Shown here in pieces: positions 833 through 62,560 of a stretch of 64,000 nt of DNA (positions within the stretch are counted from its first letter, which is position 1; every line of letters begins with the position of its first letter). Below the pieces are notes generated by a model. That model saw nothing but the letters and a program-made list of their open reading frames with translations. It had not been told where the DNA came from and did not search any database. The DNA is taken from positions 516,001 to 580,000 of the forward strand of contig CAJHNH020008454.1 of NCBI GenBank assembly GCA_905116865.2. The letters run 5' to 3'. The position numbers and the translations under genes were made by a program. The DNA comes from Candidula unifasciata. Taxonomy: Eukaryota > Mollusca > Gastropoda > Stylommatophora > Geomitridae.

Positions 833-29196
<28,364 letters not shown>

Positions 29197-30870: not shown

Positions 30871-31002
30871 TCGACCAAGTTTCAAGGTCGTAAAGAAGAG
30901 TGCTGAGAGTTCAAGTTGTTGTATATTATTGATGTCTATAATATCACTAAGATGTTTGTCAAAATTTTCATCAACTCCACACACTACCGTGTCGCCCCAT
31001 AT

Positions 31003-31197
31003 CAACGGTTCTCAACCTGTCGGTCACGATCCACTGTTGTGTCGAACAACCCTTTCACAGGGTCGCTTAGACCATCTTAAAACACATATTCACTGAAGTT
31101 ATGAAGTAGCAACAAAAATAATTATATGCATGAGGGTCACCACAATATGAAGAACTGTATTGAAGCGTCGCCGCATTAGGAAGGTGGAGAGACACTG
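31003..31197. mobile_element. SPIN-like non-autonomous hAT element (MITE)
   Basis: Starts CAACGGTTCTCAACCTGTCG and contains GAACAACCCTTTCACAGGGT, CAGTTATGAAGTAGCAAC-like GAAGTTATGAAGTAGCAACA, AGGGTCACCACAATATGAAG, AACTGTATTGAAGC and GCATTAGGAAGGTGGAGAG, ending CACTG. These are the terminal and subterminal sequences remembered for SPIN/Charlie-type hAT MITEs. Flanking octamers CCCCATAT and CCCTCTAT (6 of 8 equal) could be a decayed 8-bp target duplication. It lies in the intergenic region. Confidence 0.82.
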
Positions 31198-31734
31198 CCC
31201 TCTATGAACAAGAAGAATCTAACTGTAGAGCACACTCTTTGTCGTCCGTGGCCTAGGAGTTACGAAAGCCAGTTCACAATCCATACATACTGGAGTTTTG
31301 AAGTCAGCTGCGGGCGATGTGACAGCGGACAGTTTCACGGTAATTTTGACGTTCAGTCAATAATAGTAAACTATTAAATGTCAAACTGTTTATCAAAACC
31401 CCTCAGTAGTATTATAGAACACAAAATACACAAGAGCGAACATTACAAATGTAAATAACACTGATGCGTACTGATTTGGGAGAGTGTAATAGTGTGTGAA
31501 GGGACAGAGTGTTATGATAGTAGCTTCTGTGAGTTCACGGGGATTAGTGTCAAAATTGGCCCGAGTAGTGAGGGAGAGAGAATGTTGACCAGTGAACATG
31601 TATTATCATGAACGAGGCGTGCACGCACGAAGAGGTAGACGCGAGGGTTTACTGTGTGGGAGCTGACAAGCATGGGTAACGAGGAGAACAGAGTAAGTGT
31701 GAATTACGTGACAGTGTGATTCTCATGTAACATC
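31198..31734. other. Intergenic sequence, nothing recognised
   Basis: No family copy, RNA gene or credible coding frame was noticed. Confidence 0.45.
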
Positions 31735-34744: not shown

Positions 34745-34920
34745 CTATTCTGGCCAGGCAATGGGCATATAGTGCTAAACCTAAATTGAACAGAACAACC
34801 AGCACTCAGTGGGTGATGTGGTCGACAAAATGCCGGCCGCTTTTACTTCCCAGAAGTGTTCTCTATTTAAGAATAGGTCGACCAGGAAGCCAAAGTCCTT
34901 TAACTCGGAAAATTTTTAAT
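34745..34920 (-). mobile_element. SINE-A, 5'-truncated
   Basis: GGGCATATAGTGCTAAACCT, AGTGGGTGATGTGGTCGACA, TGCCGGCCGCTTTTACTTCC; the head is absent. Confidence 0.75.
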
Positions 34921-35560: not shown

Positions 35561-35800
35561 TATAGAACCCTTTTCCATGCGATTAGGCGTATTGGGCATA
35601 TAGTGGGTATTGTGATCAGCATCACGCCGGCCGCTTTTACTTACCAGGACTTGAATCTGGTACCAATCTAAGGCTGGGTCGACCTGGGAACAGAGGTCAT
35701 TTTGTTTTAAAGAAAAAATCCAGCAGCGTCCGGATTTGAACCTAGGACCTTCTGATCCGTAGGCGAGCGTCCAGCCGCTTCAGTACGGCGGCTCTGAAAA
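35561..35800 (-). mobile_element. SINE-A (A1 head)
   Basis: CCCTTTTCCATGCGATTAGG, GATCAGCATCACGCCGGCCG and, at the right end, the antisense head TCCGTAGGCGAGCGTCCAGC, CGCTTCAGTACGGCGGCTC. Lacks the TAGACCAAACGG segment. Confidence 0.8.
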
Positions 35801-39208: not shown

Positions 39209-42200
39209 GTGAGTAAAAGCTGTAGTCGTTACTAATTATATTGTTCATTAGTCGGTTTTCTGTCAACATAATCATAATCACGTGCCTTGCCGATTGGCGT
39301 GGGTGTACTCCATAATCTGATATTTTCAACGACATATACTCATATACTATCAGCTCAGTTTGTTAATTTGTCAAAAATCTTCTCCTTTGGTCTTTCAGTG
39401 GTCACAACATATTCACTATTCACATGATACAAAAGTCCAGTTTCCTCTAAAAAAAATTCGGAGTGGGGGAGGGGGGGGGGGGGGTGAGAGCTCCCTCCTA
39501 AATTAAGAGCATTAGTTGTAGGGATGGGGTGGGGTGTGCTCACCTATCCTTCTCACAACCGCACCTATCCTCCTCACAGCCAGAGCAACAACAAAAACAG
39601 TCGATAGGATGGCGGGGGGGGGGGGGGGGGGGGGGAGTTCCAGACATCTACAGAAATACTTCTATCTAAGGTTCAAACTATCACAAAATTATATATCTGA
39701 GTGTTATGTTTTGTGTGAGTTTTGTGTCATGTCACTTGTGTGTTGTCTTTTGTGGGAGTGTTGTGTCTGTGTGTTGTGTAAGTGTTGTGTCTGTGAGTGT
39801 TGTGTCTGTGAGTGTTGTGTCTGTGAGTTTTGTGTCTGTGTGTGTTGTGTGTGCCTGTGAGTGTTATGTCTTGTGTGAGTTTTGTCTTTTTGTCAACTTT
39901 GTGTGATTGTTGTGTCTGTGAGTGTAATGTGTTGTCTGTGAGTTTTGTTTTGTATTTGTGTTGTGTCTTGTGTGAGTATTGTGCTGTGTGTGTTGTGTCT
40001 GTGAGTGTTGTGTCTTGTATGTATGTTGTGTCTGTGAATGTTGTGCCGTGTGTGTATTGTGTATATTTATGTGTGTGTGAATGTTGTGTCTGTTTGAGTG
40101 TGGTGTCTGTGTTGTGATCTTTCTGTATATGTTTTGTGTATGTGAGTGTGTTTACATGTGTCTGTACATTTGTGTGAGTCAGTGTGTGTTTTTCCTCTTA
40201 TGTGTGTGGAGTGTCTGTGTGTAATTGTTGTGTCTGGGAGTACTATGTTTGTGAGCATTTTGTTGTGTGTGGGAGTGTTATATCTATAAATATTGTGTTT
40301 GTGAGTGTAGTGTCTTTGTAAGGGTTGTGCCATGTGTGAGTTTTGTGTCTGTGTGTGTTGTGTATATTTATGAGTGTTGCATTTGTGAGTGTGATGTCTG
40401 TGTATTGTTTTTTTCTGTATGTGTTGTGTCTGTGAGTGTGTGTTTGTTTAATTATTGTGTCCAGTGTATGCGTGTGTCTCTGTATGTTGTGTCTGTGAGT
40501 GCTATGTTTGTGTGTGTTATGTTATGTGTGAAAGTATTATATCTCTGAATGTTGTGTTTGTGAGTGCTACGTCTGTGTAACTGCTGTTTCTTTGTGTTTG
40601 TTTTGGCCTTATTTGTGTGTGTGTGCTGTGTTTGTGTGTAGTGTATATATTGTGAGTGTTCCTCTGTTTGTTGTTTCCAACGCCATCTCTAAATAGAGAA
40701 GGCCGTGGTTGTGTCTGTGTATTTATCATTCATGAGTCTATTATGTTTGTGTGAGTGTTGTCTGTGAATGCTATCTGTATGTAAGGGTTGTTTCTGTTTG
40801 AGTGCTGTATATATGTGTGTGTTGTGTCTGTGTATTGTTGTTTGTGTGTATTGTGTCTGTGAGTAGGTGCTTACCTTTGAATATTCATGCTAAAATGTTG
40901 AATCAGTTTCATATAACCTGTCTCAGAAAGCTGCTCAAAATCAAATGGCAAGATAAGATCCCAAATACTATGGTTCTTGGTAGGGCAAACCTGCCTATAA
41001 CCCACACGATACTGAAAAATTGTCAGCTGTGTTGGGCTGGTCACCTAACCCGCATGCCAGACTAAAGCCTCCCAAAGAAAGTATTTTATTGCGATATCCA
41101 GCAAGGAAAGAGGTACCAGGGAGGTCAGAAAAAGCGCTATGAGGAGACACTGAAAACTGCTCTTGATTCTTTTGACATCAACACGGCGACGTAGGAGGCG
41201 CTGCACAAGGACGTTCTGGATGGTGATCGTCCCTCAGACATAATGCATCGGCCTGCCAGGCAGCGGAGGTTGCACCAGCAGAAAAATGGAGGCAGACTAG
41301 AAAGAATCGTACTGCTAATCCCACACCTAGTGCGGTTTCCATCTGTTGTCTGCACTGCTCAAAAACTTTCCAGGATCATATTGGACTAATTAGCCACCTT
41401 CGTACTCATAATCATTGAACATCACTACTTTGGATGTCAGTGGTCTTCATCACTCGTGATGGACGAACACCACCTTTGATGGTGTCTATGAGGGTGTGTC
41501 TGTGACTGTTGTGTCTGAGAGAGTGTGTGTGGGTAAGTTTTGTTTCTGTGTGTATTGTGTCTAATTGTACTGTGTTTGTGAACAGTGAGCTTGTGTTGAG
41601 TCAGTGTGTATGTATTGTTTTTGTATCTGTTGGTTGTGTGTACGTATTGTATCTGTAAGAGTATGTATGCCAGTGTATGTTTTCTGTGTTTGTCTCTTCT
41701 CTGTGCAGATGTTGTGACTGTTTTTTTTTTTTTTTTTTTTTTGGGGGGGGGGGGGGGTCTCTATTTGTATGTGTTTGTTTTGTCTGTGAATGTGTGTAAG
41801 CCTGTTTATGTTGTGTGTTTGTGATTACTGTGCGCGTCTCTGGGTATCTAAAACTGATGTGTGTGTCTGCACTGTGTGAGTATTTTTGCATGTATATTTG
41901 AAGGTATGCATTTGTCATCCATGCCTCTGTATTATGAATTTACATTTATACAATGAATTTTGATATATGAACATAATATGCTTGATATATAAAATGCAGC
42001 TGCCATATGAAGATGAATGCTTTGAAATGCTGAATGTAAGATGGGCTTGCATGACAATAAATTTCATTCGTTAGGCACCTCACTCCAAAATATTGGGAGG
42101 GGGCGTCTCAGACCCTTACCCGGCCACCCCAAAAAAAAAAAATTTAGGAAGGGCCGAGGGCCTTCTTGTCCAAAATATTGCAAGCATGTTAAGATGTCTT

Positions 42201-45200
42201 CACTTAATATGATGTATAGACGTTATCTGCTAAAGTATTTTTTTTATACCTTTCATATTATTTTAAGCATGTTATTATGTTTATTTGCTATTCAGCAGAT
42301 TATTATTATTATTAATGGCAAATAAATATAATAAGATACTTATAATAATATGAAATGTATAAGTAAATAATTTTAAAGAACATGTCTAATAAAAGGGGGT
42401 ATCTTGGCCCCCTTACAAAATTACTGGGGGCTGAGCCACTCCCCCTAACCGTCTTTAAAAAGGGGGGGGGGGTCTCGAAGGACTTGAGCCTGCATGTTCC
42501 TGTGCTCCATTGACATGGATTTTTTGCTTAAAATGTTCTTAATTTAATGTATTTCTTACATTGCTAATAAAAAATATTTTTGCTCGCCTGGTAACAGTAA
42601 TATCAATTTTACGGTAACCATAACCTATGTATATTTAATTACATTGCTATACTTTTATACTTTAATTATTGGGAGCAATGTTTCCCCATTGTAGCTTTGA
42701 ACAAAGAAGACACAAACATTATTGCACGATTTATTGCTTAACCTATTTCACATTGCTGACACCTGGGGAGATACTGCGAAATAAGCCACACTGTAAATTG
42801 GGCAATAAATTGTTTGTGTCTTCTTAATTTATGTGTGTGTCTGTAAACACATGAGGGCCGCCGTGGTTTAGCCCCTAGATGCTCGCTTAGGGATCGGAAG
42901 GTCGCGGGTTCAGGTTCTGAGGGAGCTAGATTTTTTTTTATTTTTATATTGTCTTTGCTCTCAGGTCGACCAAGCCTTAAATAGGTACCAGGTACAGTCC
43001 TGGGAAGTAAAGGCTGATGATCTGATGCTGACCACATCACCTGCCAAGTGCCATTTGGTCTTTAAAATATAGTTCTAGCCCTATATGCCTAATACACCTT
43101 AATGTGTGGGTATGAATCTTTTTAGTATAATGAGGCCTTAAATTTGATTTCATGTGAGCATAATATTATTCTACTAGTATAAAGTTCAAACTGACATTCA
43201 GACAAGAAAGAGGGTGTTAAAGAGCATTTCATTCTAGAGATTGGACCTGACTGTCAGCTATCCTAGCCTTTACAGTTTCTAAATATTTTCTTGTATGGTC
43301 TGAAACAGATGATGTATCAAAGATGATCATTACATGGAGTACTTTCAAGGACACAGCTTCTGCAGTTTTGTATGGCTTGTCCTCCAGAAATCTAAGCATG
43401 TCCCAGCAGGGCTCCAGCTCCGAATTTATCGATGGCGGGTCTGAGAAGCGCTCTCAGTTCATCCATGTAGTTGAGCTCACTGGTTTGGTCCCCAACACCA
43501 CGTACTGTAAGTTTTTCTACTTACATTTTCTTGTTTGTCCTCTGGCTGTTTTTGGGTTAATGGGTCTTTCTTTTTTTAACCACTTAGCTGAAATGTGTGT
43601 ATCAATGGTATATTTATAAACACACTTATACTGAATATCTGATTGTTTAATAATTTTTTAGATTAGAGATTACAAGTTGTCTTATCATCTCAGTGTTTAT
43701 TTAAATGTGTAATTGCTTTTATATATATTGTGTACTTCTTCTTCTTCTCTTCCACCTTGTACCTCATTGAAGTGTTGAGGGGAGGTGTAACGTTCGTTGG
43801 TGAGCTCTGTCAACAGCTCTATTAAGACTGATGTTCACTTCTGTAAGGTTGTTCCCAATGCCATCACTTCATCTTTTCCGAGGTCTTCCACTCACTCTAT
43901 ACCCATTGTAACATTTTAGTGTGGCTCGCTGTGGCAGTTAGTACCAGGACATTCTTGTTAGGTGTCCAAACCACTTCATTTGTTGTTCTTTGATGACCTG
44001 TAATATTGTGAACTGATGGAGTTGAAGAAATTCTACCCTTTATAGAAATGCAGTTAATTAGTTGAAGACAGATCTAATGTAACTGGAGAAAAAAATTCTT
44101 AATGCAGGCGGATTTTGCAAGTCACACCATTGCCTTGGCCTTGTATTCTCATGCTTCTCTTATAGCCCAGGATAACTGTATCATCTGGAAAGACGAAAAG
44201 AGGCGAATACCAAGATTACACTATATAATATTGACACAGTTCATATTTCAAACATTTTTTAAACACTTCTTATGTAGCTGATAAAACATTGCTATCAGCC
44301 TATGTGGCTTAGGGGTTGCAGACGCTCTTTGTAATACTGAAGTGCCGGGTTTGATCCCAGTTGATTTCACAGCAGATCATGTTGTGTTGGTTTCAACAGT
44401 GTATCGAGCCAAACATTCAGGAAGCAGTGGCAAACTACAGAATTTTAAAATTGCCTAGTGCAATCACAAACTGCCAAGAAATGCTAGGGGTTGGGTCTGC
44501 ATCGTTATGTAAAGCAGACATGTCAAACTGGTGGGGCTGCATGGTGCCCTTCGCGAGCACACCTGCAGCCTGAACAAAGGAAATATTCTGCAATAATTGT
44601 TTCTTAAATTCAAATAATTTTATGTGTGTGGCACTCATGATTGCAAAATTTGACCCATATAGCTGTCAGGAGACCTTCAGTTGGACATGCCTTATATAAA
44701 TGGTACCCAACTGACTTTTTTCAAAACATTGCCATGTTTCTTAGTTGACAAAACATTGCCATGGTTCTTAGTTTCCCCATGTGGGTTCCGGGGCCCCATA
44801 GTGGGGGAAACAAGAATAGACCAGCTGCCTGCCCAAAAGTATGTTGTAAGAGTCGACCAATTGGGAGCTTCCTTTAAAGTCGGAGTGAATCTGCCTGAGA
44901 GGCAAGGAACCAACAGTCTGCATTCAAGTGAATCAGATCTGTAAAAATGATGCCCACGCAACACTCAGGTTCTGACCAACCAGAACTTCCCGCCAGAGTG
45001 TACAGCTGGTGAACGCGAAGAAGAAGAAGGTTCTTAGTTGACAAAACATTGCCATGGTTCTTAGTTGACAAAACATTTTTGTAGTTCTGATCTTTAAAAC
45101 ATTTTTTGTTTTGCCTTTGCAACACAGATTATGTAGTTGGCAGTGGACAAGGATGGTCCTCGGTGTTCTATTTCAAATCCATGCCTGCAGGAGAGGACTG

Positions 45201-48200
45201 GGGCCCAAGCCTTGTGGTGATCGGAGATCTGGGAAGTGCCAATGCTCAGTCTCTACCCCGCCTAGAGTTGGATGCAGCCCAGGGCATGTATGATGCCATC
45301 ATCCATGTTGGTATGTATGTTGGTTTATTTTTTTTTACATCAGTAATAGTAGGTAATCAGAGTCTGTGGCTTAGGCGATGCGAACACGGTTCGATCTCAG
45401 CTGGGGGCCTTGCGTTGGTTTCGACAGTGGTATCGAGAAGCTGACCATCCAGAAAGCAGTGGCAAACTACTGGACGTAAAATTAGCCTAGAAAAATCACA
45501 ACAGCCAAAAAATTATGGGGTTGGTTCTGCAATGTCCTGTAAAGGATACGCAACAAACTAATAGTAGGTAATGGAGCACCAGGAATTGAAATGGTTAGAG
45601 GTTTTTCTGTCTTCCTGGTCTTGGGTTTTGGATCTTCACGAAGAAGGATTTTTATAATTTACCTTGGTTACTAGGTCAGCCCAGTTGAACATGGGTACCA
45701 GGATGCAATAGTGTTATGTTGATAACATTACACATTGAGTGTCAATTGGTGGATACAAAATATAGGCCTAAAACCATAAGCTCAGTTTAGCGATGATTTT
45801 GAAGATGCAGCCTAATTTTAAGGCCTATTTTGAGAACAAAAGAGTATAACTTACACATATATAAATATGATATCCTTTTTACGCTTATACTAATTTTTGT
45901 AAATATTATAACAGTTGGCACTTTTGCTATCATTTCAGGTGATTTTGCCTATGACCTTCAAGCTGTGAGTAAAAGTTTAGATTTATTAGTCTTGTCTCTT
46001 ACCTGTTTTGTCACTTCTTTTAAAAAGATTTAAGTACTGGTGGGAGTAGTTGAAGGCAGCAAGAGGTACACAGTGCTACATGTGGAGGGAAACATTAAGA
46101 TGTGGTGAAAATAACTGGAAAATAAGGTGTAGGTGAGCTTTCAGTCAATTGCCAATCTCCACAGTGAAATGATCATCATCATTCTGTTAATCTTGTTATA
46201 CACTCTACGACATCTCTACATCCTTCATCTGTCTCTCAATGTTATCACCACACTCCAAACGTTGGACAAGCAGCAGTCTGAAAGAAGGCAGTCTAGGACC
46301 GAGACTTAAAAAGTGTTTGAAAATCAATATAGAATGTTGCTGAGAATAAAGAGTGTTTGAAAATCCATATAGAATGTTATCTAGTGCTGAGACTAAATAA
46401 AGAGTATTGCAAATCCATATAGACTTATTTAATGCTGAGCCAAAAAAGAGTATTGCAAATCCATATAGACTTATTTAATGCTGAGACAAAAGAGTATTGA
46501 AAATCCATATAGAATATAATCTAGAGCTGAGACACACGGGTGCTGGAAATCCATTGCAGCCAACCTTCTTTGTACAGATGTGGAGACATTGATTGCTTTT
46601 AATACCAGATATGAAATATGTTGAACAGTGGTAGAGCTGTAACATATACAATGAGAAAATCCATAAAATAGAAAGTGGAAAATGGTTGTACACGAACAAA
46701 ATCATTCAATCACTGACCCATTATGCAATCATGTTACATAGGGCTCGCAGTCTATTTCTTCACTCCAGTCTGTCCTATACAATCACTTCGATATGATGGA
46801 TACAATCCAGTCCAGCACCTTTGGCCTCTGTCATCAGTTTTTATCTTACGGTTTCTCTTGGACTTACTCATTTCCTCAGTCCCTCTGTTTCCCATTTCTT
46901 TGCCTCTTTGGTGAATATATGTTTGTCTGTCCTCAGAATGTTTTCCAATATAGCCCCATCTTCTCTGTCTTATAACTGTTGATACTAGTGGTTGGCCATG
47001 GGTTTTAGCTATCGTGCGATAGCTGTTACAGCTGACCAAGACCTAACTTTAATGTGCAAGAGTTGAATGCTGAATTAGAGCTCGGGACATCCCCATAAGC
47101 GCTCTGTCCCAATCTTCAGCAGCAAACAAAGAGTTCCAATTCCGATGGCACCAGTAACTGTTTCATTGTATATCTGTCTTGCCCTTCCCTTGAGTGTTGA
47201 GCGTCGACCAGATCCCCTGGTAATTCTTCGCAGCGCCATTCTCCCCAGACCATAATGATCTATTTGGGTTTCCGCACTGTTCACTCGCTCTCCCAGAGAA
47301 CCCTCACAATGTCTAGCTTATTATACATCAATTAACCACCAAGTTGTGCAGAACCGGCTCATTTCCTAACACACCAGCATGACCTGGAGAGAATATCCAA
47401 AGGATCCTAACTACCCAGGACCTCTGTAGTGATGCTTGCTATTCTGCACGGTGCATACCTGTCTCCACCTAACTTAACATGCTCTGTGAGTCAGTGACAA
47501 TCACGGCATGTGTATACAGCTGATTCTCAAGCCAGTGGAAGGCAGCACTGTCTCCACCTCCATTCACAAACTAGACATTGTGATATCATATGCTAGGCTT
47601 TATTGCAGTAAGTGACCTCCATTCGTCTTTGCTATGAACCCTCATGCACCTCATCTGCCCCTCAACACAGAGCCATCTGTATAGATAATCACATCACTTA
47701 GGCGGGAATTGTCATGAATCATTTGTTGATGTAGAAGAGACAATGTGTCTAATTATTTATCATGTTGGATTTTTTTTTTGTTCTTGTTATATTTAATAAC
47801 CCATCTATGATCTTTGTTGGTAATATCTTTGTCAGCTTTCTTGAGTTTCTGTGTTCCAGGTAGTCATGTTTTGCTTTCTCTGCAGGATAATGCTAGAGTT
47901 GGTGATAGGTTTATGAATCAGGTTGAATCCCTGACAGCTACTTTGCCTTACATGACATGTCCGGGAAACCATGAATATTATTAGTAAGTTCAACTTTTTT
48001 GTGTGTAATGTATTTATTTTATTTGGATGCAGTTGTATTGCACCTGTTTACAGCAGAGCTGTGATGTTTGCACTTTTTGGCTTTTGTTTCCGGATCTTTG
48101 GATATTTGTTGACTGGCTTAGCCTTTCTGGCATAAGTTCAGCTGTTTGCCAGTGTCTTCATGCTGAAAATGTCCTGCAAGACTGTCCTCTTTTGGATGAA

Positions 48201-51200
48201 CTGTGAAACAATGTGTGGCCACACCCAGTATACCTGATAGCTAAACTTGAGGGAAACCTAAGAGACCTTGAGCTTACATCCAAGATTATTGTCAAAACTA
48301 TACTGAGTGCACGACTAGATATTGCTGAAAAAGTAGTATGACACATAGGATTTATCTTTGATATATTTTTATCTTATCTTTGATATTTATTGAGCAGAAA
48401 CAGATAAGTGTTTTCATATAATGAATAATTTGCTGACATAGTTTTGTTATACAGTTGTCAACAGATATATTTCTTGATAACATTATAAAGACATTTCTCC
48501 TCCACACATTTCCATTATTCAATTGTATAATTCACAAATCTTTTTTTTATTCTGAAAATTTCTCATGGTTTTTGTTTAAAATATGACATTTCCCAATCAA
48601 AAATATACAAAATTCGTCTTCCTCTCTTCTGCTTCATTCTTCTGAGGGGAGTGCTTCACACCTAGTTGGGCACCTTAGAGGGATATGTGTCTGACTTTGT
48701 GTTTATTTGTATAGGATTCAGTCAGAGGTAGCAGGCCATGTGTGCCTATGAGTAAGTTTTCAATTCCTAACAGTTTTGGAATATTGAGGTGAGAGGAAAC
48801 CAGTGTCCTGTCCTCTCTGTTATTGCTTTAATTATTTTCAAGAGACATTTTATGAATCCAGAGGAAGTAAGATGTTGGCTTGGACGCACTTGCAGAATGC
48901 CTCATGACTGGTAACAACAACTTCCCCATTGGATGCCAGATGCGAAAAGGAATGTGGACGACCAAAGAAAACTTGGAGAAAAACGGTCGAATGGGAAATG
49001 GGATGTTACTGACATGGGATATTATGAGCAGCAAGAGAGATCACTTGTGACTGCCTTATGTCAACAACAGCAACATGAAGTGGATCTTCTTCCATGCTGT
49101 GTGGCGGTGGTAGTCACGTCTATCCACAGCCTTCTGTCTTGTGTACCTACTGTCACGATGTACTCCAGTTTTCTCCTTCTCATCTCATGACCAAAGAATG
49201 TAGATTGTCTCTTTCTGATGTGGGCAATCAGTTCTCTTCGTGAGTCAGTTTCTTTCAAAACATCCTCATTACTCTTTTTTATATGTCCAGGGTTTTCTCA
49301 TCATTCGTTTATAAAACCCCATGAATTGGATATAAAGATGACTGTAATCCAGTGCCCCTTTTACTTGGTGGGTGGACCACAGAGGTAATCATTGTTCTAA
49401 GCTGCATTTAATCCTGGCAGTTTTAAAATGTGGGTGGGCACCATACCTATAAGACAAAGAGAACTGGATGTATCCAGTTCCAGTATTGCCCATATATTAC
49501 TGGTGCCATAAAGTGAGAAAAGTAACACTGTAACCCAGTGATTTCCAAACTGCGCCACGGCGTCCCATGGAGCCGCGACCTACCTCTTCACAGGGGCGCC
49601 GCGAAATATTGTAAAAGCTCCATAATTAAATTAACCAAGACACGAATAGTCATACTTTTACTTAGGTTAGGGCGCCATGGAAAATTTTAACTGAAAAAAG
49701 GCGCTGCCACCAAAAAAACTTTGTGTATGCATTATTTTTATTTTTAAATTGCCTCTGTTTTTTTTTTCTTTGTTAACAAATATTATTGTCCTAATGCCTT
49801 AATTAATCTTAAACACCCAGTATCTGTTTTTATTTCACAGCAATTTCTCCAACTATCGGGCCAGATTTAACATGCCAAATGACAATAAGAAAATGTACTA
49901 CAGCTTCAACATGGGACCGATTCACTTTGTTTCTTTGTCAACTGAGTTCTTGTACTTTCCTTACTTTGGGTACAACCAGATATTTGAGCACTATGACTGG
50001 CTTAAGAAAGATTTAATGGTAAGAATAATGTTTAGAAATCCCCTTATTGAGTGTGTAAAAGGCAGTTTTTAAATATATTTTCAATTTATGAAAACTTTCC
50101 TAATTTTAATACTTAAAAAACAGTTTCACAAATATAAATGTTATTTATGTAAAAGTAGTTTTAGAAATAAGGTAAAAAAAAATACATGAAAACTTTCAAA
50201 AATATAAATGGTTAGAATAGATGAGAAATTTTGAATGGCTAATTGGTTAGTATTAATTTGTCCATATTATATTTGTAAACTCAGCTGTTTTGCTGATCTG
50301 ACCTGTTTGTGTGCAGATTCTTGTTCCTGGCCTCTCAGGCAGATGCACTGTGACTTCAAAGAAAGTCCCCAGTTAGTTGACTCTTACTCTTGCTTGTTGG
50401 GGAGGCAGTGGGTCAGTTCTTGTTTTTCCCACAATAGTGCTGCGTCTGGCATCATTTTTTACATTCAAACGTAATTATGTCTGCAAAGCAACATATTATA
50501 CATATCATTATATAGACATTATGCTGCAAATACTACATTTATATACTGTAAAAACTTCACATATGTAAATTCAGAGTGTAAAGTTTTTTTTTTTTTAAAT
50601 ACTTTCCTATTTTCTTTGATATTAGGATGCCAATTTGCCTGAAAACAGAGCCAAACGACCATGGATTGTTACTTTTGGCCACCGTCCTATGTACTGTTCT
50701 AACAATGATAATGATGACTGCACAAGCCATGAAAGTTTGGTGAGTTTTTTCCTTATGCAAGTTTGGTTTGTTTTGTAAGTAATCACTTTCATTGCGCAAC
50801 AGTATCATCCTAAAGTACCCCAGTCTGTTCCCATACTTTGCACTTGCTGGGGAAAAAAGCTTGTTCCTTTTTTTTTTTCTCCAGGCCACTAACTGACAGA
50901 TTGACACCCTGAGATTACAAAATCTCAAATCGAAGGACAGACCAACAACAAAACAAATCCTAGATATCCTACTCACCTTCCAGAGAAGTTTTGATTAGGG
51001 CATCATCATGGCTACACCAGCCGGGTGTAACCTGTAGTCCTGTGTGGGTGACGATTACCGAGGAAGAATATCAGCCCATGACATGAACTCTGTAGCACTA
51101 GCGTGGATCCACATGTATACAGAAGAGTCATAAATGCTGTTAATATTTTTTAGTTTTCCTTTGGATGTTATTTTTTTTTTTTTCTAAATTGAAAAAAAAA

Positions 51201-54200
51201 CGTTCAAGAAGAGACAGGGTTACAAATACCAGAGACTGTGTCTGAGTAATATTGACAGACAAAGAAAGAGATGGTTCATCCCATTTATTGAAAATGTAGC
51301 CAGACCAAACTGCATTTGAGACTTTTTACAGAAGAACATTTGGGGGGAAGACCAAGAAAGAGTTGGATAAATGATATAGCAGAAACCTGCAAAAAAAGAT
51401 AAACAAATCCATCACCCAAGAAGGCAAATACAGAAAACCATGACACTGGGCGACAACCTGGTATCAGAGAGACAACAAAAGAAGAAGAAACTGTTTAGAA
51501 ATTGGCTCGTTCTACCTGTATTTTTTCTTTCATCTACTAAGTGATTTGTGTCGGCTCTGTGGCTAAGTTGATGCGAACGCTTCGTAGTGCCGGGTTCGAT
51601 CCCAGCTGCGGCCCATGCGCCTTGCATTGGTTTCGACAGTGGTATCAAGAAAGCCGACCCTCCTGAAAGCAATGGCAAACTACTGGACGTAATTTTCCTA
51701 GAAAAACCACACAACAGCCCACAACAGCTAGGATCTGTTGGTGTTGGTTCTGCAATGTCCTGTAAAGGATACGCAACTAACCTAAGTGATTTAAGCATGC
51801 ACAATGGTCCTTAAGTTTTTTCACCCTCATCCGTTTGAACCAGGTCTGTTTTGAGTTATCTTACCTTCACAGCACTCCAGAAGCTAAGATTACCTCCCTT
51901 TCCCCCTGTATAATTGAGCGTCTTGCAAGCAACCGTACCAGTCCTGTGCTGGTTGACAATACTTCTCGTACATCCATTATGCTTCTCGTGCCTGGCTGTG
52001 CCAGTCTTTACTCCAGTTCTTGCATTCTTAGCAGCAGTGTGGACGTGCTATTTCTATGCTGTAATCCTCCATTCGTCCTCTCTGTGGACATTAACAATGC
52101 CAGTGTAATCTGCAGGCTGGCCATTTGCAGCTGTGGAAGAACCAGCAAGTCTATCAGCTCTTTCTTTGCGAACAGCTTCTGGGTGATAATGAAGATGCTC
52201 ATAGAATCACTAAGTACCATATCCTCTGAAGCCAGAATTACAGCATAACCTCTAATCTACTAAGATTTGAATGTACTAAATTTTTTTTTTTAATCTTGTT
52301 AGGTTCGTGTTGGAGTTCCCATGCTAAATATACCAGGACTCGAACCCCTGTTTTACGAACAAGGTGTGGATCTGTCTATTTGGGCACATGAACATTCTTA
52401 TGAAAGACTTTGGCCTGTCTACAACATGAAGGTGAGTTGTTCAGATTTAGTTATGCATGTCTGTGCTTGAGAGAGATAGAAAGAGAGAAAGACATTAGAG
52501 TTAACTAATTAGGATTTGTTGAAATCTGAGATTTTTGTCTGAAAGAAGCAAAAATCACAGCCTAACTGTAAACCACAACACAATGTACCAACTGCCTTTT
52601 ATGGACAAATATAGAAGAAGAATACATAATTATCTGCTTACATCAGTTGGTATTTTTATTATCCATTTATTTACAAGTCGTTATGTTAATATATTACTTT
52701 GCCATTTTTGTGTGTTACACTGATGCTTGGGTCAGCCTCTCTTGCTGTCACTTAAACTTTGTGTCATGCTATAATATGTGATTGTCTTGTTAAGTCAGTT
52801 GGTACTTATATAACTATACTCAACTGTACTTTTATTTATTTAAAAGGCTTAATAATAAGATATTTTTTTTGCAATTCCTTATGATACAGTGTTGGTTGGG
52901 TATCCCAGTCTTTGACTTCATGTCAAGCAGTAAAACATGATTCTCTGCTGAAGCCAGTTGGCATTTTTCTATGCATTTACCTAAAGGCTTACGGAGAATA
53001 TATTTCTTTTCTGCAGGTGGAAAATGGGAGCTATGATGAGCCTTACACAAACCCTGGTGGAACAACACACATAATTACTGGATCTGCTGTAAGTTAAAGA
53101 CATTTAGTGTTGAATTACTTTATTTTAAAAAAATCAACTATTAACTTGTGGATAAGAGAACCATCTAGAGGCTAGAGAAATATGGCTTCTGTGAAAAATG
53201 CATCATAGAAAAGGGGGGAAATTTAATGATGCTATTTTTCTAGAGTTGAGTTAAGTGATGTTGGGACAGTTCAAAATTCCAATGCTACCAGTGGCAGTCT
53301 GATTGAATTCTGCCTTTCCTCTGAGTGTTGTGTGTCCGCCAGATCCACTGGTCTCTCGTTACTGTACCATTCTCTTCAGACTGATGATTTATTTATGCTT
53401 CCACACTGATCACTTACTCCCAAAGGGCCTTGACCACATCATGCATCAACAGTGGTGCAGAACCAGCCAGTCTGTCTGCCTATTACTTTCCTAACACCTG
53501 AATACCCTGAGATAATATTTAAAGGTAGCTAGCATGTAACATTGATCTGTGAATTTCTGTTCGCTTCTGTGTGCTAAATCATTATCTAACCTGTTTGTAC
53601 AATTTCTGACTATTAAGTTATGAGACTAATTCCATAAAAATTAAAATTAACAACAGTTGAAGATATAGCCTGTATTTTATTCAAAGCCCCTTGTGCATTG
53701 ATACAGCAAGTGGCACAATCTAACAAATACTGGAACAACCTCTCTAGTTCTTCTGTTGTTATGGTCCTTAAAGTCGATGTTACAGCCCTTTAGATGTCGT
53801 CAGTATCGTCAAAGAAGCATCCTTTTAATGGTAACTTAATTTTGGGAATAGAAAATAACCACAAGACAAATCTGGGGAATAGGGTGGATGGTTGAGAACA
53901 CATACTTGTTTTGGGGCCAAAAACTCATGTACATCTACTGCCCACTGAGCCAGTGCATTGTCATGAGGAAAGAAAAAACTACCAGGTGTTAAATACTCGG
54001 TCGGACTTAGAGAATCATTTTCAATAGATGTTTCAAAATTCTTAAACAAACTGTGGCAGTAACAGTCTGTCCCTCTGGAATAAATTCTTTGTAAATAACT
54101 CCTTTGCTGCCGTAGAAGCACACCTTGTCTTCACTTTCGACTTTTGAAGTCTGATTTTTTTTGCCTTTTGGTGATGATGATGATGACTTCCACTGAAAAC

Positions 54201-56937
54201 ATATATGAAGGTTGCCTCTTTGAATTCCATGCTTTGCTTCCTAGATGGCTTTTTTTTTGTCTTGGCCATAATCAAATTAGTCTCATTACTTAATTTTCGG
54301 ACTTTGTATGTGAGATATTAACCCATGAAAAGATGAATCAAAGTAAGAAGCAGAACTTGTCATTTTTAAATTACCACAATCGTTGATGATAAATGAAAGT
54401 TGTGGCTAGATATAACCTGTCTGGATAACATGTATGTGACTGTGAACTAACTAGGAACAATTATTATAATCCTAGTACCCTGATGGTTGAATATCTCCCA
54501 GTATGACCTGTCCACATTGAAGTAGACACAAACTACTTCTTGGCATTTTGTATGCTCAGGTCAGACCGGCATTTTGTATGCTCAGTCAGACCAGCATTTT
54601 GTATGCTCAGTCAGACCAGCATTTTGTATGCTCAGGTCAGACCAGCATTTCGTATGCTCAGGTCAGACTGTCAAGTGAGCCCAGTCTGTGAAAGGGCTTG
54701 ATGGCTGCAGATCCTCATTGGTTCCCCCTAGCTAGCTCTGCACACTTTGTTCTTGGAGCCAGTTTTTTTTGTGTGGGTGTTAAGCATAGTGCGCAGCCTG
54801 CAGAATGTACTTAGGTGTATGTGGTCTCATCTGGCATGCATACTGTAGGGCAAGGCTATTCAACTGGCAGCCCGTGGGCTAAAACTGGCCCGCAAAGACC
54901 TAGCAAGTGGCCCGCAGATCATTGCCAGTTGTATTGCATTAATGATCTTTCTATGGTGGGACTTTGGCTTCTGGCCCATGATGATGCCCATTTTCCAACA
55001 TTTTGGCCCCTGAATAAACTTAGTTGAATAGTTCTGCTGTAGGGACTGTAAGGTCTTTATTTTATGCATGGAAACAAAGTGTAAACTGTTAATCTTCTCA
55101 GAGCTCAGACAAAATGTGTGATGCATTGTTTGACTCTCTGTTGACAATTACTTTCAGGGCTGCAGTGAAAGGGTGGAATATTTTGAGAAGAACCCACCTG
55201 ATTGGTCAGCTTTCCGCTCTAGTGATTATGGCTACACACGAATGAAGTTTTTCAACAAAACACATTTGTATGTGGAACAAGTGTCAGATGACCAGGTAAG
55301 TACCACCTGACCAATATTAGCAACAACTTACGATAAAGGTAAGTAAAGGACCTTCAGGCAAATTGAGTATATAGGACTAGACCTATTTCTTACAGACCAG
55401 ATGGCACTTGGTGGGGGATGTGGTCAGCATCACGCCGCCCACCTTCACTTCCCAATACTCAAGGCTGGGTTGACCTGGGAGCCAAGGTCATTTTTGGAAA
55501 AAGTCCAGCCCCTAAAAAAATTACAATGTCAAGAAATTTATTTTAGGAAAATCTATTCTTCTCCCTTGTATATTTTAGGAAAATCTATTCTTCTCCCTTG
55601 TATATTTTAGAAAAATCTGTTCTTCTCCCTTGTATGTTTTAAGGAAATCTATTCTTCTCCCATGTATATTTTTGGAAAATCTATTCTTCTCCCTTGTATA
55701 TTTTTGGAAAATCTATTCTTATTCTCGGCCACAGAGGTTAACCTCTATACATATTTACTGTTTTACTGCTCTTTTATTACTATTACTGTTATGTTGGCTT
55801 TAATTTCTCTCAGTGTAAGCTAGACACCTTTTAGCTTGGTACCATAATAAAGTTAAAAACTCTCCTCACGCCTTTTGCATATTAGGGCACAAGCTGCTAG
55901 GCCCATATTTTGTTTGTTTAAGATCGACTAGCACTTGATGGGTGATGTGGTCACTTTTACTTCCCATAACATTTCCTTCTATATATTTTAACCTGTCTTA
56001 ATCTGGCAGCTGAGGTCATTTATTTAAAAGTCTCCCTTGCTGCGAATTTGAAGCCAAGATCTTCAAGTGCCAAGAGATATATAAAACCATGTCTAACACT
56101 GTACGCCAGATGCGTTACTGGGTCTTTTCTCAATGTTGTTCATATACAATGTGTCATCACAAAAACAATTAGTTATCATCTGCAGATTGTAGTCTCTTGT
56201 TTATTCAAATGTTGTCTGAATTGACTGATGTCACACCGTCTGCAAAAAACTTTAAAATCTTGACAACAGCATTCTTCATGATCTGGATGTCGAAGAAAGC
56301 TGGCTCGTAAACAGTTGTGTTCTCATAAAAGTGAAACACTTCTTCCATGTAAAACACTCTAAGGGTTTGGAGGTAACTGAACCATGGGTATGTTTCCTGA
56401 AAGAAGAGGCTGGGAATGACCAGGATATCAAGGACACTCTGTGCTTGAAAGTTCATGGGGTGGGGGCAGCTCTCCAGGGTGCCCTGATAAAAGGCATGTT
56501 TTGCTCAAAGAACCTGCTACCTGATAATAAAAATCATACGATTTTCCCTGTGTGGGTTCCGCGGCCCTATTATAAGGAAAACAAGAATAGACCCACTGCC
56601 TACCCAAAAGCATGTCGTAAGAGTCGACTAATTGGGAGCTTCCTTCGGAGTTGGAGTGCATCTGCCTGAGAGGCAAGGAACCAGCAGTCTGCATACAAAT
56701 GAGTCAGATCTGCAGTTCTGCAGTCCAGAAGTGGACGAACAACCAGAACTTTCTGCCGGAGTTTACAGCTGGTGAACACGAAGAAGAAGAAAAAAAAGTT
56801 AATCTGTGCCAGTCATTTTGTCTACCCCAGACTCACTCATCTTTGTTTTATTATTTCAGGGTGGCCAGATTATTGACAGTTTCACACTAATAAAGGACCA
56901 GCATGGGCCATTTGAAAAACTGAAGAAAACATTTTAA
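39082..56937 (+). CDS. ACP7: Purple acid phosphatase, ACP7/PAPL type, complete
   Basis: Eleven exons join in frame: 39082-39208, 43309-43506, 45128-45310, 45939-45964, 47886-47983, 49841-50018, 50626-50739, 52303-52431, 53017-53088, 55158-55295, 56860-56937; 1341 bp, 446 residues, close to the vertebrate ACP7 length. The ATG sits in CCAACATGG and is followed by a signal peptide (NIPFVVKVVLFFCLMNVAEA), so the enzyme is probably secreted or lysosomal. All five metallophosphoesterase motifs are present: GDLG (Asp142), GDFAY (Asp171, Tyr174), GNHE (Asn206, His207), GHRPMYCS (His289) and AHEHSYER (His337, His339). By homology Asp142, Asp171, Tyr174 and His339 bind Fe(III), and Asp171, Asn206, His289 and His337 bind the divalent metal; it should hydrolyse phosphate monoesters at acid pH. 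N-glycosylation sequons (NLS, NTT, NFS, NKT) fit secretion. All splice borders are GT-AG. Confidence 0.95.
39460..39640. repeat. Poly-G runs
   Basis: Two G runs of roughly 16 and 23 bases, with CTCACAACCGCACCTATCCT and a near copy of it between them. Confidence 0.9.
39700..40866. repeat. Degenerate GT-rich minisatellite (GAGTGTTGTGTCTGT)
   Basis: About 1.2 kb of imperfect 12- to 16-bp units such as GTGAGTGTTGTGTCT. Cys/Val-rich frames here are composition artefacts. The array resumes at 41480 after a LINE fragment. Confidence 0.93.
40867..41479 (+). mobile_element. LINE RT C-terminal region and 3' end
   Basis: Plus frame LNQFHITCLRKLLKIKWQDK, IPNTMVLGRANLPITHTIL, QLCWAGHLTRMPD, then, after stops, PKKVFYCDIQQGKRYQGGQK and KRYEETLKTALDSF. 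This is the widespread LINE post-RT segment IKWQDKIPN...LCWAGHLTRM. It ends with the non-coding CATCACTCGTGATGGACGAA and is embedded in the GT-rich array. Confidence 0.9.
41480..41890. repeat. GT-rich minisatellite, second part, with poly-T/poly-G
   Basis: Continuation of the TGTGTCTGTGA-type array, containing a run of about 22 T followed by 16 G at 41720-41757. Confidence 0.9.
41891..42849. other. Intron sequence with A/T- and C-rich patches
   Basis: Contains TTTATTATTATTATTAATGG, and two C/G-rich patches (GGGCCGAGGGCC near 42152, GGCCCCCTTAC near 42404) that may be the ends of an old inverted-repeat element. No gene seen. Confidence 0.4.
42850..43112 (+). mobile_element. SINE-A, full length (A1 head)
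   Basis: Head GGGCCGCCGTGGTTTAGCCC and box-B-like GGTCGCGGGTTCAGGTTC; body GGTACCAGGTACAGTCCTGG, GATGCTGACCACATCACC; 3' end CCTAATACACCTTAATGTG. Confidence 0.85.
43309..43506 (+). CDS. ACP7: ACP7 exon 2
   Basis: Acceptor CTGAAACAG, donor GTAAGT, 198 bp. Encodes the N-terminal beta-sandwich region with the family-typical MIITWSTF and ELTGLVPNTTY. Confidence 0.93.
43733..44005 (-). mobile_element. LINE 3' end (antisense), GAA tail
   Basis: Reverse-oriented relative of 14905-15200: TTCTTCTTCTCTTCCACCTT, GTACCTCATTGAAGTG, TTTCCGAGGTCTTCCACTCA, GTTAGGTGTCCAAACCACTT. Confidence 0.8.
44296..44520 (+). mobile_element. SINE-B, diverged
   Basis: TATGTGGCTTAGGGGTTGCA, GTGCCGGGTTTGATCCCAGT (box B), TTGGTTTCAACAGTG, AGGAAGCAGTGGCAAACTAC and GTTGGGTCTGCATCGTTATG. 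Confidence 0.75.
44763..44773. repeat. Target-site duplication, left copy
   Basis: GGTTCTTAGTT, repeated at 45029-45039. The SINE landed inside a small tandem array of TTGACAAAACATTGCCATGG. Confidence 0.8.
44774..45028 (+). mobile_element. SINE-E, full length, 11-bp target-site duplication
   Basis: Sense copy from TTCCCCATGTGGGTTCCGGG to GGTGAACGCGAAGAAGAA. It lies directly upstream of ACP7 exon 3. Confidence 0.88.
45128..45310 (+). CDS. ACP7: ACP7 exon 3 (motif I)
   Basis: Acceptor GCAACACAG, donor GTATGT, 183 bp. Encodes WSSVFYFKSMP and the first metal motif VVIGDLGSANAQS, ending inside the codon for Gly of motif II. Confidence 0.95.
45344..45357. repeat. Target-site duplication, left copy
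   Basis: TAATAGTAGGTAAT, repeated at 45558-45571. Confidence 0.88.
45358..45557 (+). mobile_element. SINE-B, full length, 14-bp target-site duplication
   Basis: 200 bp: CAGAGTCTGTGGCTTAGGCG, GTTCGATCTCAG, TTTCGACAGTGGTATCGAGA, CAGTGGCAAACTACTGGACG and the end CTGTAAAGGATACGCAACAA. Confidence 0.9.
45572..45780 (+). mobile_element. Probable SINE-A, decayed
   Basis: AAATGGTTAGAGGTTTTTCT, GTTTTGGATCTTCACG, GGTCAGCCCAGTTGAACATG, GGTACCAGGATGC and ATAACATTACACATTGAGTG follow the SINE-A order with heavy divergence. Confidence 0.5.
45939..45964 (+). CDS. ACP7: ACP7 exon 4, 26-bp micro-exon (motif II)
   Basis: Acceptor TCATTTCAG, donor GTGAGT. Encodes GDFAYDLQA, containing Asp171 and the charge-transfer Tyr174. 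Skipping it would remove the metal-bridging Asp and shift the frame. Confidence 0.93.
46295..46550. repeat. Degenerate minisatellite, about five copies of 50-60 bp
   Basis: Units around AAATCCATATAGAATGTTAT and CTAGTGCTGAGAC with AAAGAGT; spacing varies. Confidence 0.85.
46740..47045. mobile_element. Unclassified retroposon remnant, copy 1
   Basis: GGCTCGCAGTCTATTTCTTC, ATGATGGATACAATCCAGTC, CAGCACCTTTGGCCTCTG and CCATCTTCTCTGTCTTATAA are shared with 60205-60500. Probably an antisense LINE segment; the class is not proven. Confidence 0.6.
47060..47720 (-). mobile_element. RNase-H LINE, 3' end (antisense)
   Basis: Minus strand shows GSGRRSTLKGRARQIYNETV, GAIGIGTLCLLLKIG and, further upstream, broken RNase H sequence starting near IYTDGSVL. 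Longest antisense copy of this family. Confidence 0.8.
47886..47983 (+). CDS. ACP7: ACP7 exon 5 (motif III)
   Basis: Acceptor TCTCTGCAG, donor GTAAGT, 98 bp. Encodes VGDRFMNQVESL and MTCPGNHEYYY with metal ligand Asn206 and the catalytic-site His207. Confidence 0.95.
48830..49065 (+). mobile_element. LINE 3' end remnant
   Basis: Frames give WLGRTCRMPHDW and GRPKKTWRKTVEWEMG with QQERSLVTALCQQQ, the C-terminal region related to that at 4568-5050 but a different family. Confidence 0.65.
49075..49330 (-). mobile_element. LINE RT C-terminal remnant, second family
   Basis: Antisense; minus frame MKETDSRRELIAHIRKRQST, FFGHEMRRRKLEYIVT. Same family as 17455-17930. Confidence 0.7.
49534..49735. mobile_element. 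hAT-type MITE, decayed
   Basis: Begins CAGTGATTTCCAAACTGCGC, CACGGCG, contains GGGCGCCGCGAAATATTGTA and, in the right part, GGGCGCCATGGAAAATTTTA and AAGGCGCTGCC, ending near AAACTTTG. This CAGTGnTTCCCAAACT start and mirrored end is typical of hAT MITEs. Confidence 0.6.
49841..50018 (+). CDS. ACP7: ACP7 exon 6
   Basis: Acceptor ATTTCACAG, donor GTAAGA, 178 bp. Encodes FSNYRARFNMP, MYYSFNMGPIHFVSLSTEF and QYDWLKKDL-like YDWLKKDLM, the conserved central region. Confidence 0.95.
50275..50452 (-). mobile_element. SINE-E, 3'-less copy
   Basis: Antisense: GCTGATCTGACCTGTTTGTG, TTCCTGGCCTCTCAGGCAGA, TTAGTTGACTCTTACTCTTG, TTTTTCCCACAATAGTGC; the GAA-tail side is missing. Confidence 0.7.
50626..50739 (+). 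CDS. ACP7: ACP7 exon 7 (motif IV)
   Basis: Acceptor TTGATATTAG, donor GTGAGT, 114 bp, phase 0. Encodes RPWIVTFGHRPMYCSNND with metal ligand His289. Confidence 0.95.
51180..51495 (+). mobile_element. LINE 3' end remnant, GAA tail
   Basis: Fragments RRDRVTNTRD, GRPRKSWINDIAETCKK and GDNLVSERQQKKKK-type ending in AAAGAAGAAGAAACTG. Related to the antisense copy at 5820-6240. Confidence 0.7.
51537..51547. repeat. Target-site duplication, left copy
   Basis: CTAAGTGATTT, repeated at 51782-51792. Confidence 0.88.
51548..51781 (+). mobile_element. SINE-B, full length, 11-bp target-site duplication
   Basis: 234 bp: GTCGGCTCTGTGGCTAAGTT, CCGGGTTCGATCCCAG (box B), TTTCGACAGTGGTATCAAGA, CAATGGCAAACTACTGGACG and CAATGTCCTGTAAAGGATAC. 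A short CCACAACAGC duplication explains its extra length. Confidence 0.92.
51840..52250 (-). mobile_element. RNase H fragment of a LINE
   Basis: Read on the minus strand in shifting frames: HYHPEAVRKERADRLAGSST, AANGQPADYTGIVNVHRED. The ERADRLAGS box is the RNase H landmark. Frameshifts split it; the long plus-strand frame across it is the antisense shadow. Confidence 0.7.
52303..52431 (+). CDS. ACP7: ACP7 exon 8 (motif V)
   Basis: Acceptor ATCTTGTTAG, donor GTGAGT, 129 bp, phase 0. Encodes LFYEQGVDLSIWAHEHSYER with His337 and His339. Ala replaces the Gly of the plant GHxH motif, as in animal ACP7. Confidence 0.95.
52500..52600. repeat. Unclassified interspersed repeat, copy 2
   Basis: Matches 20150-20250, best over AACTGTAAACCACAACACAA and ACCAACTGCCTTTTA. 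Confidence 0.55.
53017..53088 (+). CDS. ACP7: ACP7 exon 9
   Basis: Acceptor TTTTCTGCAG, donor GTAAGT, 72 bp. Encodes YTNPGGTTHIITGSA, a conserved strand following motif V. Confidence 0.93.
53244..53530 (-). mobile_element. RNase-H LINE, 3' end (antisense)
   Basis: CCTCTGAGTGTTGTGTGTCC, GCCAGATCCACTGGTCTCT, CCAAAGGGCCTTGACCACAT and GTGGTGCAGAACCAGCCAGT follow the antisense order of this family, with a gap. Confidence 0.75.
53640..54275 (-). pseudogene. Mariner-like transposase fossil
   Basis: Minus-strand frames contain KVKT followed, after a frame change, by MLLRQQ and RIYSRGTDCYCHSLF, then HDNALAQWAVDVHEFLAPK and LNHPPYSPDLSCGYFLFPKL. The HDNA and PPYSPDLxxxDYFLFP motifs are the C-terminal DD(34)D catalytic part of Tc1/mariner transposases (second and third acidic residues); the third Asp is altered here. 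N-terminal domain and terminal repeats were not located. Lies in ACP7 intron 9. Confidence 0.82.
54540..54672. repeat. Minisatellite, five copies of about 31 bp
   Basis: Units CATTTTGTATGCTCAGGTCA, GACCRG with loss of GG in two copies. Confidence 0.92.
54843..54850. repeat. 8-bp target-site duplication, left copy
   Basis: CTGTAGGG, repeated exactly at 55037-55044. Confidence 0.85.
54851..55036. mobile_element. hAT-type MITE with perfect 8-bp target-site duplication
   Basis: 186 bp. Left terminal repeat CAAGGCTATTCAACT and right AGTTGAATAGTTCTG pair at 12 of 15 positions. Interior begins GGCAGCCCGTGGGCTAAAAC, TGGCCCGC and ends TTTTGGCCCCTGAATAAACT. Eight-base duplications and this layout are diagnostic of the hAT superfamily. 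Confidence 0.9.
55158..55295 (+). CDS. ACP7: ACP7 exon 10
   Basis: Acceptor TTACTTTCAG, donor GTAAGT, 138 bp. Encodes GCSERVEYF, WSAFRSSDYGYTRMKFFN and HLYVEQVSDD. Confidence 0.93.
55335..55512 (-). mobile_element. SINE-A, 5'-truncated
   Basis: AAGTAAAGGACCTTCAGGCA, GAGTATATAGGACTAGACCT, GATGTGGTCAGCATCACGCC, GGTTGACCTGGGAGCCAAGG. Confidence 0.82.
55530..55722. repeat. Minisatellite, six copies of about 33 bp
   Basis: Units TTTTAGGAAAATCTATTCTT, CTCCCTTGTATA with few substitutions. Confidence 0.93.
55865..56120 (-). mobile_element. SINE-A, diverged
   Basis: CTCCTCACGCCTTTTGCATA, GGCACAAGCTGCTAGGCCCA, GCACTTGATGGGTGATGTGG, CTTTTACTTCCCATAAC; the head side (GCCAAGATCTTCAAG) is decayed. Confidence 0.65.
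56545..56793 (+). mobile_element. SINE-E, near full length
   Basis: Sense copy from CCCTGTGTGGGTTCCGCGGC through CAAGGAACCAGCAGTCTGCA to GGTGAACACGAAGAAGAAGA, directly upstream of the last ACP7 exon. CAGTTCTGCAGTCCAG replaces the ACACTCAGG part. Confidence 0.85.
56860..56937 (+). CDS. ACP7: ACP7 terminal exon
   Basis: Acceptor TTATTTCAG, 78 bp to TAA. Encodes IIDSFTLIKDQHGPF, the family's C-terminal strand. Confidence 0.93.
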   Translation, partial: GGQIIDSFTLIKDQHGPFEKLKKTF

Positions 56938-57289
56938 GAAGGAATTACCTATTTAATGTATAACATACAGAATAATCATTAGATTACAGAACAACACAAC
57001 ACTATGCTCAAGATTTTTAGCTAACATGTTTTAATAGTGTCATTAATTTGTTGTAAGAAGTTCTATCACTGTGAATACTACTTGGGATTATATTTAAATA
57101 TCTATATGGTCTTTGTGGCAATGAGGTTAAGCCATTTGTTACACAGGGGAACATAAGAATTTTAGAAAAGCTTAAGTGGGTCAGGGCACACATAAAAGGT
57201 AGGGAAACCCTGCTTTAGGCACTTATCTAAGATGCCTTATGCAAGGAATATTTTACCTAAACCCTAAGATCGTTTAACTACACATAACT

Positions 57290-61827: not shown

Positions 61828-61961
61828 TGTATGTATGTATGTATGTATGTATGTATGTATGTATGTATGTATGTATGTATGTATGTATGTATGTATGTAT
61901 GTATGTATGTATGTATGTATGTATGTATGTATGTGTGTGTATGTATGTATGTATGTATGTA

Positions 61962-62011
<50 letters not shown>

Positions 62012-62018
62012 TGTGTGT

Positions 62019-62061
<43 letters not shown>

Positions 62062-62087
62062 TGTGTGTGTGTCTGTGTGTGTGTGTG

Positions 62088-62128
<41 letters not shown>

Positions 62129-62501
62129 GTCTGTCCGTCTGTCTGTCCGTCCGTCCGTCCGTCCGTCCGTCCGCCCGCCCGCCCGCCCGTCTGTCTGTCT
62201 GTGTGCGTGCGTGCGTGCGTAAGTGCGTGCGTGCGTGCGTGCGTGTATGTATGTATGTGTGTGTGTGTGTGTGTATGTAGGCAGGTAGGTAGGTAGGTAG
62301 GCAGGCAGGCAGTATGTATGTATGTATGTATGTATGTATGTATGTATGTATGTATGTATGTATGTATGTATGTATGTATGTATGTATGTATGTATGTCTG
62401 TCTGTATGTATGTATGTATGTATGTATGTATGTATGTATGTATGTATTTATGTATGTATGTAGGTAAGTAGGAATGTAGGTAGGTAGGTAGGTAGGTAGG
62501 T

Positions 62502-62536
<35 letters not shown>

Positions 62537-62560
62537 TAGGTAGGCAGGCAGGTAGGTAGG
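61828..62560. repeat. Compound microsatellite (GTAT, GT, CTGT, CCGT, GCGT, GTAG, GGCA)
   Basis: About 730 bp of successive homogeneous blocks. Long Cys/Val/Met-Tyr-Val-Cys and Thr-His frames on both strands are artefacts of the four-base period. Confidence 0.97.

Follow-up and report, generated by a model that had tools for sequence, protein, structure and literature searches.

SPIN elements (SPIN/URR1) are hAT elements of mammals and other tetrapods, for which the source work is reportedly that of Pace et al. 2008. SPIN is one of the classic cases of a DNA transposon crossing phyla, and the route by which it travels is unsettled. Among gastropods, the hAT element of the freshwater snail Lymnaea stagnalis is said, in work attributed to Gilbert et al. 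2010, to be SPIN and to be nearly identical to the copies of Old World mammals. A further paper (PMC4344730) cites a transfer of hAT elements in which Lymnaea stagnalis took part. In the freshwater snail Biomphalaria glabrata a hAT element with 'significant identity' to SPIN is present in about 1,000 copies, and no intact transposases were detected in the assembly (PMC5440852). In the blood-feeding insect Rhodnius prolixus, SPIN is described as acquired from vertebrates, and the identity of its four transferred families (SPIN, OC1, hAT1 and ET) to opossum, squirrel monkey and bat elements is said to reach about 98.1% (PMC11614815). SPIN has been assigned to the Buster group, and the target duplication of TcBuster (from Tribolium) has the form nnnTAnnn (PMC3499496).

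Here we describe a SPIN-type miniature inverted-repeat element (MITE) of the land snail Candidula unifasciata, one copy of which lies in the window, the whole 64,000-nucleotide stretch of DNA that was analysed. The element shares with that of Biomphalaria a snail host and its nature as a hAT DNA element with identity to SPIN, and with that of Lymnaea a panpulmonate host and a likeness to vertebrate elements, but both of those hosts live in fresh water. With the SPIN of Rhodnius it has an invertebrate host in common, Rhodnius being an insect that feeds on blood. TcBuster shares with the snail element the Buster group and the nnnTAnnn duplications, and frames related to its transposase occur at three SPIN loci of the snail. 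No SPIN report in stylommatophorans was found in the literature searched, which is weak evidence of absence as most subscription papers lay outside reach; the genome paper for Arion vulgaris (PMC9392753) gave no hit for SPIN as a transposon. With this snail, a family already known to be transferred horizontally gains a host. The initial annotation had suggested that a copy here would place the lineage in the SPIN network: the host is indeed new, but snails as such were already represented by the Biomphalaria and Lymnaea reports.

A SPIN-type copy in the window

The reference for all comparisons is a 311-bp sequence that we take to be the mammalian SPIN/URR1 consensus, neither its sequence nor its name being drawn from a curated database entry. 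It was set down when the window copy alone was known, the other genome copies coming later, and fitting it to those copies was therefore impossible. SPIN sequence was also sought elsewhere, and none was present in the phage collection, in viral contigs (four patterns) or in the genome-contig collection (two patterns); searches of paper texts for SPIN letters found no SPIN sequence, one of the two papers matched holding an unrelated mouse Wee1 primer.

Against this reference the window copy aligns in two colinear blocks (E 5e-17 for the left and E 2e-26 for the right; Table 1), whose outer limits coincide with the stated ends of the element, and is overall ~85% identical (161/190), with 121 bp of the reference interior missing. 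Chance resemblance was rejected on these E-values and on a shuffle control, in which the reference SPIN was dinucleotide-shuffled 200 times and the highest score in the window was 34.0 bits, against the 109 and 78 bits observed. The five sequence words quoted by the initial annotation are all found within the element. Its termini read CAACGG...CACTG, and its terminal inverted repeats (TIRs) are decayed, with 11/17 matching positions versus 15/17 in the reference consensus; the K2P distance of the copy to the first family consensus (below) is 0.135. The flanking octamers CCCCATAT and CCCTCTAT match at 6/8 positions, an imperfect 8-bp target-site duplication. At that spacing an equally good octamer pair is present at 731 of 63,789 window positions (1.1%), or at 372 of 53,616 once the listed tandem repeats are set aside; those that also fit a TA centre number 124 in the whole window and 38 outside the listed tandem repeats.

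Within the 64-kb window no second SPIN copy was detected, tRNA and Rfam scans of the window gave no match, and the copy folded as a DNA hairpin showed no excess structure (z -0.33). Several other repeats of the window are included in Table 1.

Table 1. Coordinates of the SPIN-type copy, its parts and other features of the window
Feature	Position	Strand	Remarks
SPIN-type hAT MITE copy, 195 bp, non-coding	31003..31197	+	86.8% identity to the 197-bp family consensus (30 genome copies, window copy included)
Left target-site duplicate CCCCATAT	30995..31002	+	One change from CCCTATAT, an nnnTAnnn octamer
Right target-site duplicate CCCTCTAT	31198..31205	+	One change from CCCTATAT
5' TIR CAACGGTTCTCAACCTG	31003..31019	+	11/17 vs 3' end in reverse complement
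3' TIR, reverse complement CAGTGTCTCTCCACCTT	31181..31197	-	
Segment corresponding to bases 1-89 of reference SPIN consensus	31003..31089	+	73/89
TCACTGA junction replacing 121 bp of SPIN interior	31090..31096	+	Identical in family consensus
Segment corresponding to bases 211-311 of reference SPIN consensus	31097..31197	+	88/101
Acid phosphatase type 7 (purple acid phosphatase, ACP7) exons	43251..56940 (approximate span)	+	Pfam PF16656, E 1.8e-12, first exon
Broken non-LTR retrotransposon	3539-4534	+	RVT_1, E 6.3e-36; neighbouring frames 2523-5050
Frame that looks by eye like the end of a Tc1/mariner transposase	53825-54130	-	No Pfam match; HPPYSPDL motif, which we take to be that of Tc1/mariner transposase
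Dispersed repeat, core like GTGGTCAGCATCACGCCGGCCGCCTTTACTTCCC	9911-9976, 10268-10372, 11791-11895		Copies 62-80% identical to reference copies
Dispersed repeat, core like GTGGTCAGCATCACGCCGGCCGCCTTTACTTCCC, further copies	34762-34866, 35595-35660, 55364-55468		
Long microsatellite/minisatellite arrays	20794-21477, 22663-23645, 27826-28334, 39777-40522, 61828-62567		

A dispersed family in the snail genome

The assembly searched comprises 1,344,651,174 bases in 7,176 contigs. With the window copy as query, all 40 scored candidates (of 2640 at first look) matched, the window copy itself included. An exact search for the 16-mer GTTATGAAGTAGCAAC gave 1274 hits across the genome (636 forward, 638 reverse) and none for its reversed control. 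The first 30 of these loci in contig order all align to the family consensus with an E-value of 1e-4 or lower, some of them partially. Of the 29 copies L002-L030, a set picked for resemblance to the window copy, 14 keep the 16-mer intact, and from this fraction and the count there are likely to be at least about 2,600 copies in all.

Two consensus sequences were built. The first, from 30 copies turned to one strand (L001-L030), is 197 bp long and is identical to the reference SPIN at 87/89 and 98/101 positions of the two ends, 185/190 in all (97.4%). The second, from 28 copies taken in contig order (L051-L080, minus L060 and L073, which have tandem arrays inside), is identical at 186/190 positions (97.9%) and thus differs at 4/190; three copies are common to both sets (L052=L021, L053=L018, L068=L011), which are accordingly not wholly independent. 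Of the 311-bp reference form, 121 bp are missing from the snail MITE, and TCACTGA stands at the joint. The family consensus begins CAGCGGTTCTCAACC and finishes GGTTGAGAACCACTG, that is, with short TIRs starting CAG as in the hAT superfamily, and the family has the features of MITEs: short length (195-197 bp), no coding content, many copies and common ends. The initial annotation had named the window copy a SPIN-like hAT MITE, a reading upheld by the alignments and by the two rebuilt ancestors, and the genome-wide count and host consensus that it called for are those given here.

The flanks of the family were compared at 25 places with both ends present, all from the first locus set, which was chosen for likeness to the window copy; six matches with a missing end were excluded from this count. 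The flanking octamers match at 6/8 or better in 23 of the 25 places, perfectly in four, while among mismatched pairs (flanks from different copies) 52 of 600 reach that level; the two places below it stand at 5 and at 0. Position 4 is T in 23 and 22 of the 25, and position 5 is A in 21 and 23. Both the 8-bp duplication of hAT elements and the TA-centred (nnnTAnnn) duplication of the Buster group are thus seen across the family.

In the first set, where good matches are over-represented, the mean K2P distance to the first consensus is 0.107. In the contig-order set, where 16 of the 28 copies measured are full-length, the mean distance to the consensus is 0.146, and because of this mean the SPIN MITE family is, judged by divergence, not recent in the snail genome, in keeping with the earlier remark that the window copy was not brand new.

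Some SPIN MITE copies contain tandem arrays expanded from inside the element: L014 at 977-1536 (31-bp unit x 18), L073 at about 1630-3014 (31-bp spacing) and L060 at about 1031-1450 (35-bp spacing). The occurrence of such arrays in 2 of 30 contig-order copies suggests that the SPIN MITE seeds minisatellites.

Longer SPIN relics and transposase frames

A genome search with the 311-bp reference SPIN listed 70 matches (40 scored of 4,049 first-look candidates), none of which covers bases 1-311, the mammal short form, continuously. The SPIN interior that is missing from the MITE is nevertheless present in the snail genome: among the 40 scored candidates it occurs at 9 loci, at 78-91% identity, and five of these 9 loci start at base 86 of the reference SPIN.

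Three of the SPIN-interior loci (C114, C5 and C5008) carry decayed Buster-type transposase frames upstream of the SPIN 3' end and on the same strand. The transposase is broken into several frames, which in pieces of at least 19 residues show 27-49% protein identity to TcBuster (P0121), the query being a sequence that we take to be the TcBuster transposase. In mutual alignment the three loci share pieces of 63-84% identity, the longest at 71-75% except for a 590-column piece at 63%. An intact transposase was not seen at any of the three, nor did the surrounding stretches examined show a MITE-like 5' terminus. The search for an autonomous copy, which the initial annotation had recommended, thus led to decayed Buster-type frames before a SPIN 3' end at three loci, but to neither an intact frame nor, in the stretches examined, a 5' terminus. 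At two other SPIN 3' ends, L081 (C827) and L083 (C665), the best transposase match in the 3.1 kb searched reached only E 0.71.

The TcBuster query had no match among solved structures at E 1e-5, and in a protein search with it no mollusc was seen by eye among the named matches (best 120 of 1322, most of them without a name). The 20 best TcBuster matches in the genome (L031-L050) were examined as SPIN candidates and, having no SPIN ends within their 1.5-kb flanks, were not taken as SPIN. We take them to be other Buster families, and most of the Buster transposases examined would then not be SPIN.

C5008 (L088/L086) also contains a full-length MITE, 80% identical, at 1027-1213 of the joined reverse strand; the first transposase match of this decayed SPIN-type copy follows ~160 bp downstream, and the MITE is perhaps a nested insertion. 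At C114 and C5 a single unit of ~55 bp immediately precedes the SPIN 3' end, a unit that is tandemly repeated at C827 (L081, about 2250-2790) and C5008 (joined reverse strand, about 3550-4260).

Host gene comparison

The exons of the ACP7 gene in the window beyond the first were recognized from exon motifs, the last two being placed by eye against P0001; searched against solved structures, an ACP7 exon gave no match. A 331-aa sequence was spliced from the exons as far as about 53,080. Among its best 120 of 1402 protein matches, identity is 88% and 86% for two proteins of Bradybaena similaris, 71% for those of Physella acuta and Aplysia, 68% for that of Biomphalaria glabrata, 66% for a Candidula protein and 56% for that of the coelacanth. 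The Candidula match is probably a paralogue, judging from the proteins compared, since Bradybaena too has one at 66%. Bradybaena is a stylommatophoran land snail (order from the database lineage), and the gastropod host proposed at the outset is, on the 88% match, more precisely a stylommatophoran land snail that is placed near Bradybaena.

The noncoding ends of the rebuilt ancestral SPIN sequences are ~98% identical in DNA to the reference mammal consensus, against 56% identity in protein for a conserved enzyme compared between snail and coelacanth. From this disparity we infer horizontal transfer, in agreement with the initial annotation, which had taken SPIN as horizontally transferred.

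Origin of the family and alternatives

We consider it highly probable that the family is a non-autonomous SPIN (hAT, Buster group) MITE that arose by internal deletion, and that its ancestor was horizontally transferred to the snail lineage. The mechanism we propose is based on the common ends, the common internal joint, the dispersed copies, the 8-bp TA-centred duplications and the decayed transposase frames at loci that share the 3' terminus. The MITE would have arisen when a full-length SPIN lost its interior; transposase from full-length copies would have bound the common ends in trans and excised it; and the MITE would have been pasted into nnnTAnnn targets, repair leaving the 8-bp duplication. 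The ancestral element would have reached the land-snail lineage or its ancestor horizontally, and not by way of the common ancestor of molluscs and vertebrates. To our knowledge the TCACTGA deletion joint is peculiar to the snail element, which argues that full-length SPIN probably arrived first and that the MITE formed afterwards, its copies having decayed since. Under an assumed neutral rate of 2-5e-9 per site per year, the invasion would be 29-73 million years old. It is possible, and we put it forward tentatively, that SPIN entered land snails separately from the freshwater-snail events, as a full-length element and at about the period of the tetrapod sweep.

The alternative that bears on the last point is that SPIN entered once, before freshwater and land pulmonates diverged, and that Lymnaea, Biomphalaria and the present snail all inherited it, with no separate transfer to land snails. 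The SPIN-like hAT element of Biomphalaria and the cited hAT transfer involving Lymnaea would fit it, as would the fact that all these snails belong to Panpulmonata (Bradybaena by its database lineage). If the split between freshwater and land pulmonates is more than 150 million years old, the mean K2P of 0.146 over 28 copies would need a neutral rate, uncalibrated here, of less than about 1e-9 per site per year; we regard a single entry as unlikely. A different kind of alternative would make the family a mollusc-specific hAT MITE with only terminal repeats and short motifs in common with tetrapod SPIN. TIR words are indeed common among hAT-Charlie MITEs, and the TIR by itself is shared with others of them: a MER5A sequence, which we take to be the consensus of a hAT-Charlie MITE, has 13 exact bases in common with the element. 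Kinship through the TIR only was rejected for MER5A, the remaining likeness being a weak 48-column match on the opposite strand (E 0.006). Provided that the reference is indeed SPIN, a mollusc-specific origin is very improbable, as the consensus is 97.4-97.9% identical to it over 190 bp outside the deletion and the SPIN interior is present at up to 91% identity in the same genome. That the window holds a single short copy might suggest chance resemblance or contamination of the assembly, an explanation to which we give practically no credence: the E-values and shuffles speak against it, as do more than 1000 copies of the 16-mer (those listed lying on many contigs), the separate target-site duplications and the position of the window copy on one contig with a snail gene.

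Implications for the SPIN family

A SPIN-derived MITE that arose by internal deletion from a horizontally acquired ancestor remains the preferred reading, and the land-snail SPIN copies, together with the apparent full-length relics, provide a further snail lineage for testing the date, number and direction of the transfers. Land snails also harbour vertebrate-infecting trematodes and nematodes, and a host-parasite route of transfer becomes testable in a terrestrial setting. If a separate, full-length entry into land snails is true, Stylommatophora, with a very large copy load, would be a hub of the SPIN network or even a donor, and not a dead end.
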